From positions 186,001-250,000 of the forward strand of contig NZ_JAUAOA010000003.1 in NCBI RefSeq assembly GCF_030542965.1: DNA of 64,000 nucleotides. The letters are read 5' to 3'. This DNA comes from Azotosporobacter soli (GTDB taxonomy: Bacteria > Bacillota > Negativicutes > SG130). The translations under genes and the position numbers were made by a program. This document shows positions 4,683 to 13,038 of this stretch, piece after piece (positions within the stretch are counted from its first letter, which is position 1; each line of letters starts with the position of its first letter). Below the pieces are notes generated by a model. That model was not told the origin of the DNA and did not search any database. It worked only from the letters and a program-made list of their open reading frames with translations.

Positions 4683-5783
4683 TTACAAAACTATCTCCAA
4701 TCCTTTTCTTTTCGCCTTAGCGTAAGCCAATAAGCGCAGCGCGACCATGCGCACTTCGTTGCTGCGTACGCGCTGCGCGCCTTCGTCGAGCAGCGCAAGA
4801 AGCGGCTCCAGCCACGTTTGCGGCAGACCGCACTGCGGATCGGCGACAAATTGCCTGACCTTGGTCTCCTGGCAGATGCTGCGCCAGATCGCTTCTTCCT
4901 CGACCCAGCCATTACTCGACCTTAATACCAGGAGCGGTTTACCGGCGATCAGCGCCTCGCTGACCGTCGACCAGCCGCATTTTGTCACGACAGCGTCGCA
5001 GGCAGCCAGATAATGTTGCGTATCGAGCGCTTCTTGCGGCACGGGAAATACATTCGCCAGATCCGGCACACGGATGCCGCGCGTATACAAAAAATCGACG
5101 TCAGCCGGAAGCGGCATACCTTCGAGTTCGAGCGCACCGCCAATGCTCAGGAAAAGCAAAGGACGACCTGGCCGTTTATATTTTTTACGCAATTCTCGAA
5201 TCCGTTCTTCACACAGCGGTCGGCAGATCAAACCAACTTCGCGCCTTACTCCAATCGGACTGGCTGCGCCGGTAGAAAGCGCATATTCAAGTTGCAGCGT
5301 GGCCTTCTCATATTGCTCGCGCAGCGGCAGCAACTCTTTCTCCGAACAAAAGCCGCGACATATCTCATACCAGGTGAAATTTGAAAGCGCAATTCCTGCT
5401 CTGCCGATTTTCGCAGCTACGCTGAACGCTTCAGGGACGATGTCGGAAACAACCAGATCATACTTCTGATCGACGTCTGCGATTTCTCTTGCCGCCGAAT
5501 CCGTCAGAGCGGCGACCCAGTTCAACGTTTCCCGGCGCGTCGCCTCTATGTTCACCGCCCAGGCTGCCTGATCAAAGACGATGGAAAAACTCGAAGTGAA
5601 TAAGCGCCACTCGATGCGTGAAGCATAAGCCTGCAGATAGCTCTCAGCAAAACGCTGATGCTGCGCCTGCCCCTTCAGCACGACCTGCAGCGTCTGATCC
5701 TCTTTCAGCATCGCTTCCAATACGGCGAGCGAACGGGTCAGGTGACCAAAGCCAAATGGCGATATATAATAGAGTAGTTTCAT
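4683..5783 (-). CDS. GT-B fold glycosyltransferase (MurG/UGT-like)
   Basis: 366-residue protein with the two-domain layout of GT-B enzymes. The N-terminus 'YYISPFGFGHLTRSL' is the glycine-rich loop plus His/Arg seen in MurG- and UGT-like transferases. The C-terminal half contains 'LFLSIGGALELEG' and 'VTKCGWSTVSEALIAGKPLL', the nucleotide-sugar binding loop and alpha/beta/alpha motif. No signal peptide or membrane anchor is present, so it probably acts at the cytoplasmic face on a cell-surface or lipid acceptor. It is the first gene of the set with the HD and GNAT genes. Neither donor sugar nor acceptor can be read from the sequence. Confidence 0.7.
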   Translation of the reverse strand: MKLLYYISPFGFGHLTRSLAVLEAMLKEDQTLQVVLKGQAQHQRFAESYLQAYASRIEWRLFTSSFSIVFDQAAWAVNIEATRRETLNWVAALTDSAAREIADVDQKYDLVVSDIVPEAFSVAAKIGRAGIALSNFTWYEICRGFCSEKELLPLREQYEKATLQLEYALSTGAASPIGVRREVGLICRPLCEERIRELRKKYKRPGRPLLFLSIGGALELEGMPLPADVDFLYTRGIRVPDLANVFPVPQEALDTQHYLAACDAVVTKCGWSTVSEALIAGKPLLVLRSSNGWVEEEAIWRSICQETKVRQFVADPQCGLPQTWLEPLLALLDEGAQRVRSNEVRMVALRLLAYAKAKRKGLEIVL

Positions 5784-6009
5784 TCTTCTGCTCTTTCCTT
5801 TCTCCGGGCATGCAAAACTGCTCCGCTTCGTTGTTTAGTTTAGATTCGTCATTTTAGGCGCTCTTCCTGCCCGAGTCAAGCTTACGGATTGCCCGGATTG
5901 CCATTCGATGATAGAGTATAGATAGATACGTCACCCGGTATTGCCCGGGAAATATACGGACCGGCTCAGGCGCACCTGCAGTCCGAGTCTGACAGCGGAG
6001 GTCAGCACT

Positions 6010-6762
6010 ATGGTACATTCTCTTGAAATTTCCGAATCGCACGCTTCAACCTGCCTGAACAAAGCAAGACAGGCCTTTCGTCTGCATCAGCGCGAAACCG
6101 CCTGCCATTGGTATACGGAAGCAGACCTGCACCGTCGGCCCGATGCCACATTGCAGGATTTGGCCGATTTTCTCGTTGTAGCCACCGAGTACCGGCCCGA
6201 TTTGGCCCGTAAAATAGCGCGCCTGCTTCTGACGCAAGACCAACCCCTGCCCGCCGTTTATGTCCAGGATATTTTTTGCTGCGCTTTGTTCCTGCCCGAC
6301 CCAGAGCTCGAGGAGCTGGCCATCGAACACGTCTTGGCCGGCCCTTTAACGCCGCACCTTTGTCTGCGCGTTGCCGATATGTACTTCGACTATTCCTCCA
6401 ACCGGCGCGAACAGGCCAAAGCGCTCCTTTGGGTCAACCGGGCCGCGACGGCCGAACCGCTCGACTTCAACGACTGGGCAGCTAAGACGCATGCTCTCTA
6501 CGTATTGGTCGAAGACAATGAGCGTGCCGCGCAGGTCATTCTTTCCTGTGCAGAAAAGACCATCGCTTTGGCCAGTCAGGCTCCCGCCATCGACCCGACC
6601 GCGCTCGACGATTTGCTGGAAGCCTTCGACTACATCACCGCCGGACCGGCACTCGCCAAAAAATTATACGAACAAGTCCTGCTCAACGAGAAACTTCCTT
6701 TGCCGGACAAGCATCGCATCCGCCAGGATCAAAAAGAAATCATTCAGGAGTTCGATTTATGA
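6010..6762 (+). CDS. Unknown helical protein, TPR-like
   Basis: I do not recognise a named family. The 250-residue protein starts at 6010, eight bases after GGAGGT; a frame from 5941 exists but lacks a ribosome site. The sequence is almost wholly alpha-helical, Ala/Leu-rich, and has recurring helix pairs with small residues at contact positions (for example 'NKARQAFRLHQRETACHWYTE' spread over about 14-35), resembling tetratricopeptide solenoids that bind other proteins. No signal peptide, membrane segment or catalytic motif is visible. It is transcribed alone, away from the glycosyltransferase operon, and is followed by a fold-back repeat. Confidence 0.7.
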   Translation: MVHSLEISESHASTCLNKARQAFRLHQRETACHWYTEADLHRRPDATLQDLADFLVVATEYRPDLARKIARLLLTQDQPLPAVYVQDIFCCALFLPDPELEELAIEHVLAGPLTPHLCLRVADMYFDYSSNRREQAKALLWVNRAATAEPLDFNDWAAKTHALYVLVEDNERAAQVILSCAEKTIALASQAPAIDPTALDDLLEAFDYITAGPALAKKLYEQVLLNEKLPLPDKHRIRQDQKEIIQEFDL

Positions 6763-8786: not shown

Positions 8787-11354
8787 TTACTCCTCGCCTT
8801 CGCCGGAAAACTTCAGATACTCGATTTTGAAATTGGCGTTGGCCAGCATTTCCGGCCAGCTTTTCACCATCTTATAAACATTATATTTCTTGTCCGGTGA
8901 CAGGCTCTCCCAGCGGACCAGGTCGGGATCGGTCTTCTTCTCCCAATCCATCGCCTCTCCCTTTTTCCAACCGTTGGCCTTCTTATAGCGCAGCCAGTAA
9001 GAGTGTTCATACGCGGCGAGAATATCCATCTCGCTTTCGGTGAACTCGATGGCAGGCGGCTTCTCTTTCACCGAGACGACATCATAATTAATGCGCAATA
9101 GCGCGTCGGGAATATGTTTGGCCTGCTCGCGCGCGAACAGCTTCGGTTCTTCATCCAGTTCATCCCACACTTTGGTCAGCGCGCTTGAAACGTAAGGATT
9201 GCGTTCGTTCAGGCTGCGATACAGTTCATGGATCGCCATCGAGAGGCTCTCTATTTTCTCACTGTAGAACGTGTCATGCATCAGATGGCGCAAGAACGCC
9301 TCTTCATCGACATGAAGCTTCAACTGTTCTTTCGAAGGCAGGAACGATTGTTCCCATTTCTTCGCACCCACTAAGAGGCTCATATCGAGAATCGCTTCCA
9401 TCGACCGCGATTCATGCTTGTAACGCGGAATCTTGAGCAGCGCACGCAGGACGCCGGTGTCGATCTGCGCCTCACCGTTGAAGATCAGATGCGGTACTTT
9501 TTTCTCAAGCAGAGAACGCAGCAGCATCGCGCGGCGGATGATGAACAGCTGGTCATAGCGCGGCTCGGTCTGGTTCGGTCCGAGGATATTGACGTAACCG
9601 CGCAGACGACTGAGAAAATCCGGCCCCTTGGCGCTTTTGAACTCAGCGGCAAAACTCTTCTTTTCTTCCGCTTCGCTGATTTCCTCGCCGCAAAAATTCT
9701 TGATCGTATTACTGGTTCCGCCGGCAAAGACAAAGATAGCCTTGCCGATCGAATGCAGCGAATCGCCTTCGCGAAATACGCCATCTTGCATCGGCGCTAG
9801 AAAATATTTCAGCCAGCCGAGCGTTCCTTCGAATGCGGAATCAAACTCATCAAAGAAGACCAGCGGGATTTTTCCCTCTAGCGAAAGATCGCGCACCTTG
9901 TGAAACGCATTGATCAGTTCGAGCGGACTGCGAAACTGCGACAGATTAAAATTCAAGCGTTCGATCAGCATCGGCGCAATGCTGCCGGCGACCTGCGTCA
10001 CACCGAAGGATTTTCCCGACCCCGGCGTGCCGAAGACCGCAATTGAGAGCGGCCGCGTCGTATTGGCGGTGGAAATGTATTCGCACAGCAAATTTTTAAT
10101 GCTCCGATAGCTTTCGATTTCGGTCCGGTCGACCGTCTGCAATTTGCCGAACTGCGCAATCGGAATATAGCGCAGCGACTGCTGCACGCCTTTCTTGACG
10201 ATATTGTAGGCGATTTCCGCCAGATTGGTCGAACTCTTTTCTTTCAAGATATACCAGTAATGATCCGTGTTGTCCGCTTGCCGGATCGCGACGTCCTGTA
10301 CATGCTCCTTGCAGATGAAATCGTCAGCCGCCTCGCTAAAGATTTCACTCTTAGGAAATGACGCCGGTTCCATCCCGTCGCCAAACCCTGCCACGAAATA
10401 TTTTTGCGCCGCAACGATGCCTTCACGGATGCCTTCGCCGATCGAAAGGGAAAGTTCCTCCACGTTCGACCCCGCCGTGATGCAGCGGGCAATCCCGGCC
10501 ACAAAGCAGGACGTATACCCCGACATCATGCCCTGGTCATCGGCAAAAGAGCCGCCCTCAAACTCGTAGGGCAGAAAGTAAAGGTGCGATTCCACGCTGC
10601 CGGCTTCATTCTTATAGTAAATCGCACCTTCCATGCCGAACAGGACGATCAAATGGCGGCAATTCGCCAAAAAAGTAAGATTGGGGCTGTTGTTGATCTG
10701 CCAGACAAAATCCTGCGCCGTACGTTCCCAGGACAAACCCTTGCTGATATTCACGCCCTTCGAACGCAAATCCTCGCTGTTGATGATCACGATCGTATTG
10801 TTGATATGCTTGCCTTCGATCCTTCTCCATAAGGCGTTGGCATTGTTCGGATTGCTCATCTTGTACAGGATGAGCGGCTCCCTGTCCGTCGTCTTTATCG
10901 CCAGCGGCCAGAACTCTTCCTTCGCGTTGAAGCCGTTATTCTCATCGTCGATGATCACCATATCGGCATCAGCGGTATCGTTTAAAATCGGCAGCAGCTT
11001 GATCGCGCCATTTGCCGGTCCGGCAAAGCCGAGCAACTGCTTGAGCCGGTATGTCTGGCCGCGCTTTTCCTGTCCGGCTGCGTTCGAAAAACGTTCGATC
11101 TCGCCGACCGCCTGAAGAAATTCTTTGGCCGACGCCGCATCCAATTCCGGTTCCTGCGGCCCGATCACTTTGCCGTTTGTCGCCGCCGCGACCAAACGCG
11201 CGAGCAGCAGCGCTTCGCCGGGCAGAAATACGCTGTGTATATTGACATGGGCCTGCCAGTTCAAGCCCTTGCTGTTTCGTTCATTCGTCCGCCAATATAA
11301 AGAATTGATGCAAATGTCGCCGGACACGACAATTTTGAATGCATTGCTTACCAT
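8787..11354 (-). CDS. Ribokinase-like / AAA+ ATPase / RyR-domain protein
   Basis: An 855-residue protein with an unusual domain order. Residues about 5-340 look like a diverged PfkB/ribokinase fold: 'VVSGDICIN' at the start, 'LIVLFGMEGAIYYK' near 235-248, and 'DDQGMMSGYTSCFVAG' where kinases have their GxGD catalytic motif (here altered). Residues about 400-650 are AAA+: Walker A GTPGSGKS (442-449), Walker B 'LVFFDEFD' (498-505), sensor-1 Asn (about 549), and an arginine-finger-like 'FLSRLRG' (about 580). Residues about 772-838 match the RyR domain, with 'YWLRYKKANGWKKGE' and 'EKKTDPDLVRWESL'. There is no signal peptide or membrane segment. The start follows GAGGGAG by seven bases. The function is unknown; a ligand-sensing remodelling ATPase is a guess. 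Confidence 0.75.
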   Translation of the reverse strand: MVSNAFKIVVSGDICINSLYWRTNERNSKGLNWQAHVNIHSVFLPGEALLLARLVAAATNGKVIGPQEPELDAASAKEFLQAVGEIERFSNAAGQEKRGQTYRLKQLLGFAGPANGAIKLLPILNDTADADMVIIDDENNGFNAKEEFWPLAIKTTDREPLILYKMSNPNNANALWRRIEGKHINNTIVIINSEDLRSKGVNISKGLSWERTAQDFVWQINNSPNLTFLANCRHLIVLFGMEGAIYYKNEAGSVESHLYFLPYEFEGGSFADDQGMMSGYTSCFVAGIARCITAGSNVEELSLSIGEGIREGIVAAQKYFVAGFGDGMEPASFPKSEIFSEAADDFICKEHVQDVAIRQADNTDHYWYILKEKSSTNLAEIAYNIVKKGVQQSLRYIPIAQFGKLQTVDRTEIESYRSIKNLLCEYISTANTTRPLSIAVFGTPGSGKSFGVTQVAGSIAPMLIERLNFNLSQFRSPLELINAFHKVRDLSLEGKIPLVFFDEFDSAFEGTLGWLKYFLAPMQDGVFREGDSLHSIGKAIFVFAGGTSNTIKNFCGEEISEAEEKKSFAAEFKSAKGPDFLSRLRGYVNILGPNQTEPRYDQLFIIRRAMLLRSLLEKKVPHLIFNGEAQIDTGVLRALLKIPRYKHESRSMEAILDMSLLVGAKKWEQSFLPSKEQLKLHVDEEAFLRHLMHDTFYSEKIESLSMAIHELYRSLNERNPYVSSALTKVWDELDEEPKLFAREQAKHIPDALLRINYDVVSVKEKPPAIEFTESEMDILAAYEHSYWLRYKKANGWKKGEAMDWEKKTDPDLVRWESLSPDKKYNVYKMVKSWPEMLANANFKIEYLKFSGEGEE

Positions 11355-11458
11355 GCCACCACTCCCTCTTCCATCGCCTGTAAACCTTTCTCACATGATA
11401 TCATGCGCAAGAAAAGCAATCCAGTCGAATTGTGTTAAGTTTATCCGCAGGCGCAAAA

Positions 11459-11503
11459 AAACTGCCTCAAACAGGCCGATTTCGCTTCTGTTTGAGACAG
11501 TTC
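11459..11503 (-). terminator. Terminator of the yedE-yedF operon
   Basis: Arms AACTGTCTCAAACAG / CTGTTTGAGGCAGTT followed by Ts on the minus strand, starting 8 bp past the YedF stop. Confidence 0.85.
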
Positions 11504-11510
11504 TATTCTA

Positions 11511-11747
11511 TTATTCCGGCACCCGAACAAGAAAGCGCAGTGTCGGACCGATTTTTTCCGGCGCTTCCACCATTTCATAGCCGGCTCTGACCACTTCCTC
11601 CGGCACCGTGCCGAAACTTTGCGGACAGTCCGCCAGGATTTCCAGCACCGCTCCTTTAGGCAGCCCCTGCAGTGTTTCCAACGAAAACACGACCGGGTAC
11701 GGTCAGGCCTCGCCCCGTAAATCTAAAAAAAACTTCTTATCGTTCAC
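11511..11747 (-). CDS. yedF: TusA/YedF-like probable selenoprotein (in-frame TGA = Sec)
   Basis: 78-residue TusA/SirA-fold protein read through a TGA at 11703-11705 (residue 15). The frame gives 'FFLDLRGEA-U-PYPVV', that is, the TGA stands exactly where TusA-family proteins have the catalytic Cys of the CPxP motif. The remaining 63 codons keep the family pattern ('LPKGAVLEILADCPQS', then a C-terminal strand) to a TAA. The GTG start at 11747 overlaps the yedE stop by four bases (GTGA) and has GGGAGGG upstream. A hairpin resembling a bacterial SECIS follows the TGA. A Cys-to-stop mutation is the alternative, but then the downstream frame should decay. Likely role: selenium/sulfur carrier working with YedE. 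Confidence 0.8.
11664..11705 (-). promoter_or_regulatory. SECIS-like hairpin after the TGA codon
   Basis: Starting at the TGA, the RNA can form a lower CCC/GGG pairing and an upper stem GUGUUUUC / GGAAACAC closed by a GUU loop about 20 nt after the UGA. A short upper stem with G at the start of the apical loop, 16-37 nt from UGA, is what bacterial SelB-binding SECIS elements show. Confidence 0.6.
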
Positions 11748-12955
11748 GCACAGCCCTCCCGACGGCTAAATTGCTTTTCTTTTGTGCTCTGACGCCAATC
11801 CGCCCAGACATATAGCGCCGCAAGGAGCAGTGCGGTGATGCCCAGCGCAAGCGGCATGCCCCATTGTTTCACCATGTCGATGCGCGAAAACGGCTCGACC
11901 AGGCTCGGATATACGATCGGATCCCACGCCAGCGTGAGCAGCGTCGCCCCGATGACATTGCCAAGGCCGACGATCCAAAATTGCAGTTGTCCCTCTACGG
12001 AACGGTACATCCAACCGGTTTCGCAGCCGCCGGCAATGACGATGCCGACGCCGAACATGACGCCGCCCAATAGGGCGTTAGGTCCGGCCCACCAAATGAC
12101 ATTCGGCGCCATCCCCTTGCTGAGAAAGACAGCCGTGATCAGTGTCTGCACCGCGATCCCCAAGACCAAAGCCTTAGCAACATTCGGCCGTCCAAGCAGC
12201 CAGAGATCACGGAACGCGGAGGTAAAGCAGACCTGGCCTTTTTGGATCAAAAAGCCGAAAGCAAAGCCGAACAGCGTGGCCAACGACAGATTGACCGGAT
12301 AGCTGCCGCCCATATGCTGCAGCATGTAATACGCAAACAGTCCGATTCCCAGCATGCCAAAATAAGGCTGCCAGCGATAATATTCCGACTTGGCACGATC
12401 GCCGATCTGCGATACGTTCGACAGTTTCGGCTTACCTTTTACCCATGGCTGCATGCTGATCTTCAAACCCAAATACGTTCCGCCGATCGTCCCAAGCGTG
12501 AACATCCAGGCATGGACGGAAAATTGCGGAATTCCCGTAAACAGCGCCGCCAAGTTGCAGCCCATCGCCATCCGCGTACCGAAGCCCGCGATCACGCCGC
12601 CGACCAACGCCTGCACGGCCCGCCTCATTGTCGGTACCCTCAGTTTAAAATGCTGCCCTAAGAGCGCACTGCTGAACGCGCCGCCGAACATCGCGATCAC
12701 CATCACGCCGTCAGGACGCGTCAGGGGACTTCCGGCAAATTTGATAAGTTTCAAATAGCCCAATTGTTCGACATTTACGCCGATCGCCTGCAGAAAATGT
12801 CCGCCCCAGCGAGTAAATTCGCCCGTCACAGCCCAGGCCACGCCGAGTGTGCCGAAATAGAGCGCACTGAGCACGCCGAGCGCCAATATCGCAAAACGCT
12901 GGCTCCAAAAACCAGTGATGATTTGCGTATAATATCGCTTTGCCAATAAGTTCAT
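11744..12955 (-). CDS. yedE: YeeE/YedE-family membrane transporter (selenium metabolism)
   Basis: 403-residue polytopic protein with about ten hydrophobic segments, built of two YeeE/YedE repeats. The Cys-bearing motifs of the family are present: 'MGCNLAALFTG' (about 142), 'KGQVCFTSAFRD' (about 240) and 'IAGGCETGWMYRS' (about 310). Homologs such as TsuA import thiosulfate, and the YedE branch co-occurs with selenium-donor genes. Direct overlap with a TusA-like gene that has a TGA at its catalytic Cys points to a selenium role here. The start at 12955 follows GAGGTG by six bases. A good sigma-A promoter lies 54 bp upstream. Confidence 0.88.
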   Translation of the reverse strand: MNLLAKRYYTQIITGFWSQRFAILALGVLSALYFGTLGVAWAVTGEFTRWGGHFLQAIGVNVEQLGYLKLIKFAGSPLTRPDGVMVIAMFGGAFSSALLGQHFKLRVPTMRRAVQALVGGVIAGFGTRMAMGCNLAALFTGIPQFSVHAWMFTLGTIGGTYLGLKISMQPWVKGKPKLSNVSQIGDRAKSEYYRWQPYFGMLGIGLFAYYMLQHMGGSYPVNLSLATLFGFAFGFLIQKGQVCFTSAFRDLWLLGRPNVAKALVLGIAVQTLITAVFLSKGMAPNVIWWAGPNALLGGVMFGVGIVIAGGCETGWMYRSVEGQLQFWIVGLGNVIGATLLTLAWDPIVYPSLVEPFSRIDMVKQWGMPLALGITALLLAALYVWADWRQSTKEKQFSRREGCA

Positions 12956-13008: not shown

Positions 13009-13038
13009 ATTATAGTACGCCGAGAAAAAACTTTCCAA
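13009..13038 (-). promoter_or_regulatory. Sigma-A promoter of yedE-yedF
   Basis: -35 TTGGAA (13033-13038), 18-bp spacer, perfect -10 TATAAT (13009-13014), reading toward yedE. Confidence 0.65.

Follow-up and report, generated by a model that had tools for sequence, protein, structure and literature searches.

The window analysed here, a stretch of 64,000 nucleotides from Azotosporobacter soli, contains a gene for an Escherichia coli-type short YedF protein (TusA fold), in which an in-frame TGA is very probably read as selenocysteine (Sec), as judged from comparative sequence evidence. This gene, yedF, comprises 78 codons on the reverse strand (11511–11747) with a GTG start and a TAA stop (11513–11511). 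The TGA at 11705–11703 (UGA in the transcript), the predicted Sec codon, specifies residue 15, the cysteine position of the CPxP motif. Only if this codon is read through is a complete 78-residue YedF obtained, which then begins with VNDKKFFLDLRGEAU-PYPVVFSLETL. The initial annotation of the sequence had regarded the gene as a likely selenoprotein gene, and this view is now supported by the alternation of TGA and Cys codons among relatives, the matching distribution of SelB, selection on the downstream frame, a conserved hairpin and the Sec machinery of the genome. Sec would be inserted at the UGA by SelB and tRNA-Sec, directed by a SECIS hairpin located just downstream.

The read-through product is matched by the Pfam model TusA with 56.6 bits (cut-off 28.6) and by the NCBIfam model NF008242 (YedF) with 97.6 bits when C is written for U (curated cut-off 79) and with 89.8 bits directly from the raw DNA, which bears out the claim that read-through yields a complete TusA-fold protein. 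In the alignment U15 falls on the invariant Cys of CPxP (here U-P-Y-P), exactly as had been proposed. It belongs neither to TusA proper nor to the two-domain YedF: the model for TusA proper (NF001423, cut-off 78 bits) gave 23.7 bits, the two-domain YedF model TIGR03527 (cut-off 110 bits) did not match the product at an E-value of 0.001, and a DsrE domain is absent from the 78 residues. Plain short YedF proteins of NF008242 carry the active cysteine in CPxP, and the codon found there is TGA, a predicted Sec codon; the product is filed as a Sec variant of NF008242 and not as a plain member.

Together with the preceding yedE, yedF forms an operon of two genes. Its GTG start at 11747 overlaps the TGA stop of yedE/fdhT (GTGA), as noted initially, and is accompanied by a Shine-Dalgarno-like motif GGGAGG. 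The partner gene yedE (11744–12955, reverse strand) encodes a membrane protein of 403 amino acids from the YeeE/YedE family, which is matched by NF033796 (selen_YedE_FdhT) with 487.9 bits (cut-off 350), and it immediately precedes yedF in every related locus examined for which enough upstream sequence was available. A sigma-70-like promoter (TTGGAA, 18 nt, TATAAT; a consensus match only) is found upstream of yedE at 13009–13038 on the same strand. Behind the TAA stop of yedF an intrinsic-terminator-like hairpin with a T run follows (11455–11505, reverse strand; −26 kcal/mol, z-score −4.29), in agreement with the normal stop and terminator described before. On the 3′ side of this terminator, an ORF on the reverse strand (8787–11354) encodes a protein of 855 amino acids that contains an AAA-type segment and carries a RyR domain at its C-terminus; NCBIfam gave no match for it.

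For the search for related genes 1,176 genome look-ups were carried out, which included some genomes more than once. A scan of the genome contigs with a single protein as query gave no match, while the alignment-based scan did. Within the class Negativicutes yedF scored above the family cut-off in seven of 380 genomes. Four of them, distributed over three families, carry TGA at the codon for residue 15: the genome of the window, which is the only representative of its family and order in the genome set searched, G293, and the two genomes G306 and G307 of one genus. The other three (G076, G077 and G079) carry TGC or TGT. Thus, the alternation between Cys and TGA that had been suggested as a check was observed, and an in-frame UGA lies on a conserved Cys in several genomes, forming the Cys/Sec pair expected for bacterial selenoproteins. 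The remaining matches of the phylum survey contained no internal stop, and all distant YedF homologs in which the motif was read have Cys. Carboxydothermus and Carboxydocella possess SelB and yet encode a Cys YedF, three stop-free Cys copies were found in the searched class of a Carboxydothermus-like genome, and the relatives in Paenibacillus and Burkholderia have Cys as well. A further genome, G314, was listed with one TGA and was rejected, as its open frame has Cys in CPxP and lacks a TGA at that place. With tblastn, plasmids gave matches only below 60% identity.

In a concatenated tree of YedE and YedF, built with residue 15 masked, the four TGA genes group together (ultrafast bootstrap 92). 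The topology fits a single change from Cys to Sec within the Negativicutes or, alternatively, an older Sec form which would have been lost in the SelB-less branch. The residue preceding position 15 is Ala in all TGA genes (GEAU; 11706–11708 in the window) and Pro in all Cys genes of the tree (GEPC). As a side observation, yedE of G306 (locus L125, around 8560) is apparently frameshifted, since its halves match in different frames; this could be an assembly error, and the gene of the sister genome G307 is intact.

The frame downstream of the TGA is under strong purifying selection. Between families dN amounted to 0.08–0.17 and dS ranged from 1.2 to saturated, which corresponds to a dN/dS of about 0.1 in three families. 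The 63 codons behind the TGA are open and family-like, as had been described, and the frame is kept in the close relatives, whose lack of it had been named as a possible refutation.

A bacterial SECIS hairpin, GUGUUUUC-GUU-GGAAACAC, is predicted at 11672–11690 (reverse strand). The sequence GUGUUUUCGUUGGAAACAC (11690–11672) starts 12 nt after the TGA and folds into an 8-bp stem with the loop GUU (11682–11680), 20 nt after the UGA. Published constraints for such elements comprise a loop of 3–9 nt with G in one of the first two positions, a stem of 4–16 bp, a spacing of 16–37 nt and a minimum free energy (MFE) of −7.5 kcal/mol or lower (PMC13188914). With its 3-nt loop beginning with G, its 8-bp stem, its spacing and its MFE the yedF hairpin lies within all of them: over 40 nt, MFEs of −14.3, −9.7 and −8.3 kcal/mol were calculated for TGA genes, compared with −1.1, −0.9 and −5.2 kcal/mol for Cys genes. 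Because a hairpin passing a rough filter follows 5.5% of all TGA triplets of the window, a single sequence carries little information and the weight rests on conservation in the relatives. The 19 nt of the hairpin are invariant in all TGA genes, synonymous sites included, and the hairpin is absent from the Cys genes. All six codons covering it (20–25) are identical at every base among the TGA genes, whereas about three quarters of their other amino-acid-conserved codons vary synonymously (hypergeometric p about 6e-4; longest-run permutation p about 0.009). The SECIS-like hairpin with a G-first apical loop at the expected distance, as postulated initially, is conserved in the TGA genes; since its stem is the same in all four, they offer no base-pair covariation in its support. 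A search of the window against Rfam was negative, which is uninformative as bacterial SECIS elements vary. Another, terminator-like hairpin indicated by a pattern scan at 11705–11690 was set aside, since it is not conserved in the folds of the relatives.

The distribution of the Sec machinery agrees with that of the TGA. SelB is encoded in all four TGA genomes and in none of the three Cys genomes of the Negativicutes, which are 89–100% complete. The genome of the window encodes SelA and SelB in adjacent genes, and in addition SelD and a tRNA-Sec (anticodon UCA), so that the absence of selB and selC, which would have spoken against a selenoprotein, does not apply. It also possesses two established UGA-containing selenoprotein genes: fdhA (formate dehydrogenase alpha), with one TGA inside a match of 854.8 bits, and selD, with TGA at SGG-U-ASK. 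In the latter gene, located at about 5245–6285 of locus L023 on contig C12, the TGA makes ORF callers start late; a two-domain yedF (TIGR03527) comes after selD on this contig.

Other readings of the TGA were weighed against Sec. If it were a real stop, yedF would be a pseudogene from which only a peptide of 14 residues is made. TGA does regularly serve as a stop codon in this genome, as can be concluded from the nine of 30 long open frames of the window that end in it; nevertheless, the 63 codons behind it are open under the selection described above and four genomes, all of them with SelB, have retained this TGA, and we regard a real stop as very improbable. The same nine frames, together with the tRNA-Sec and the position of the codon at a Cys/Sec site with a SECIS-type hairpin, argue against nonspecific readthrough of the UGA and against its decoding as another amino acid through a suppressor tRNA or a reassigned code, a reading that appears slightly less probable still. 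Nothing was found to suggest that TGC or TGT had been misread in sequencing or assembly, and the chance of this is negligible: TGA is common to four separate assemblies, so that resequencing is unlikely to reveal a Cys codon, and it is accompanied by the hairpin and the preceding Ala, while the Cys genes have Pro and lack such a hairpin.

The predicted Sec-containing YedF is a form of a known protein that has probably not been reported before. The short YedF of E. coli (NF008242/PRK11018, PDB 1JE3), encoded with YedE, and FdhU/FdhT of Campylobacter share the family, the fold, the yedE neighbor and the motif position with the window gene; the known short members have Cys at CPxP, whereas the window gene has UGA and a SECIS-type hairpin. 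The YedF of TIGR03527 encoded next to selD on C12 has a TusA domain and a link to selenium in common with it, but it is a separate gene with an additional DsrE domain and Cys. Sec is likewise found in chalcogen-handling proteins of the prokaryotic selenoprotein catalogue of 2026, which includes Sec forms of YeeE/YedE transporters, DsrE and several rhodaneses (PMC13188914). The family PF01206 (TusA/SirA/YedF) has no entry in this catalogue, and no earlier report of a Sec form of TusA/YedF was found in the open-access literature; the statement of the initial annotation that surveys had reported Sec in TusA-like proteins could thus not be substantiated. If the reading is correct, the TusA/YedF family joins the list of selenoproteins with Sec at the catalytic position, by way of a gene which ordinary annotation truncates. 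It would furthermore provide, for a protein of 78 residues whose fold is known, Sec and Cys versions that form a clean natural pair.

With regard to function, the best structural match of the AlphaFold model of YedF was YeeD in the YeeE-YeeD complex (TMq 0.84, rmsd 1.2 Å). The model reached a pLDDT of 92.7 with 25 sequences and a poor 68 with seven, and it places residue 15 just before the helix 17–27. In YeeD the Cys of CPxP is the catalytic residue, which decomposes thiosulfate at the transporter exit (PMC11073785). By analogy we infer a YeeD-like mechanism at residue 15, and the likeliest function of YedF would be to take or reduce selenium (or sulfur) species arriving via YedE. YedF would dock on the cytoplasmic side of YedE, as in YeeE-YeeD. 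Its residue 15, with Se instead of S, would receive the incoming chalcogen species and then reduce or cleave it, the selenol being superior to a thiol both as nucleophile and as reductant, and selenium would be handed on in the direction of SelD to serve Sec as well as the selenium cofactor of molybdenum hydroxylases.

The YeeE-YeeD pair (TsuA-TsuB, PDB 8J4C) likewise combines a transporter with a TusA-fold partner that has its active center at the CPxP residue; unlike it, the window pair scores as YedE/FdhT and YedF, has Sec for Cys and probably has selenium as substrate. That YedE-YedF handles selenium rather than sulfur is an assumption we favor with some reserve. Evidence from gene neighborhoods comes from the SelB-less Pelosinus-type Cys genomes G076 and G077, in which yedE-yedF follows the gene of a selenium-dependent xanthine dehydrogenase (TIGR03311, about 1400 bits). 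Behind the pair lie xdhC-like genes, selD and a two-domain yedF in G076, and yqeC, a mocA-like gene and xdhC-like genes in G077. By this neighborhood the pair is linked to selenium use as such and not to Sec alone. In the genome of the window yqeB is present. In Campylobacter, FdhT supports formate dehydrogenase activity (PMC11237541).

It is less probable, though a serious alternative, that YedF is a selenoprotein and the pair nonetheless handles sulfur (e.g., thiosulfate or polysulfide), with Sec providing a better sulfurtransferase. The YeeE/YedE family takes in sulfur importers, the closest structure is that of a thiosulfate pair, and the Cys YedF of Paenibacillus and Burkholderia may count against selenium as substrate. 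Moreover, deletion of yedE in Methanococcus maripaludis caused no clear selenium-uptake phenotype (PMC11097638), and the fdhT deletion in Campylobacter had a partial effect (PMC11237541); both results stand against a simple uptake role. On the other hand, the window transporter reached just 115 bits with NF052577, the model for TsuA-type thiosulfate transporters (cut-off 400), far below its score as YedE/FdhT, and in G076 and G077, which have Cys and lack SelB, the pair lies in the cluster of a selenium-dependent xanthine dehydrogenase, joined by selD in one of the two. With Sec at residue 15 and this context of the Cys forms, the question of selenium uptake by YedE-YedF becomes directly testable.

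Starting from selenium as substrate, a more speculative idea is that, with Sec-YedF, the route of selenium acquisition would itself include a selenoprotein. As the synthesis of Sec-YedF needs charged tRNA-Sec, the active form would be made only with selenium available, which might create a self-reinforcing or self-sensing loop; its selenol might carry an Se-Se or Se-S intermediate that is less stable in the Cys forms. We consider this idea possible, albeit rather unlikely.

At loci L127 and L128, in two SelB-less relatives, the Cys yedE-yedF pair lies beside genes encoding a selenium-dependent xanthine dehydrogenase and its maturation, and in L128 also selD. This neighborhood represents a context for selenium-cofactor supply.
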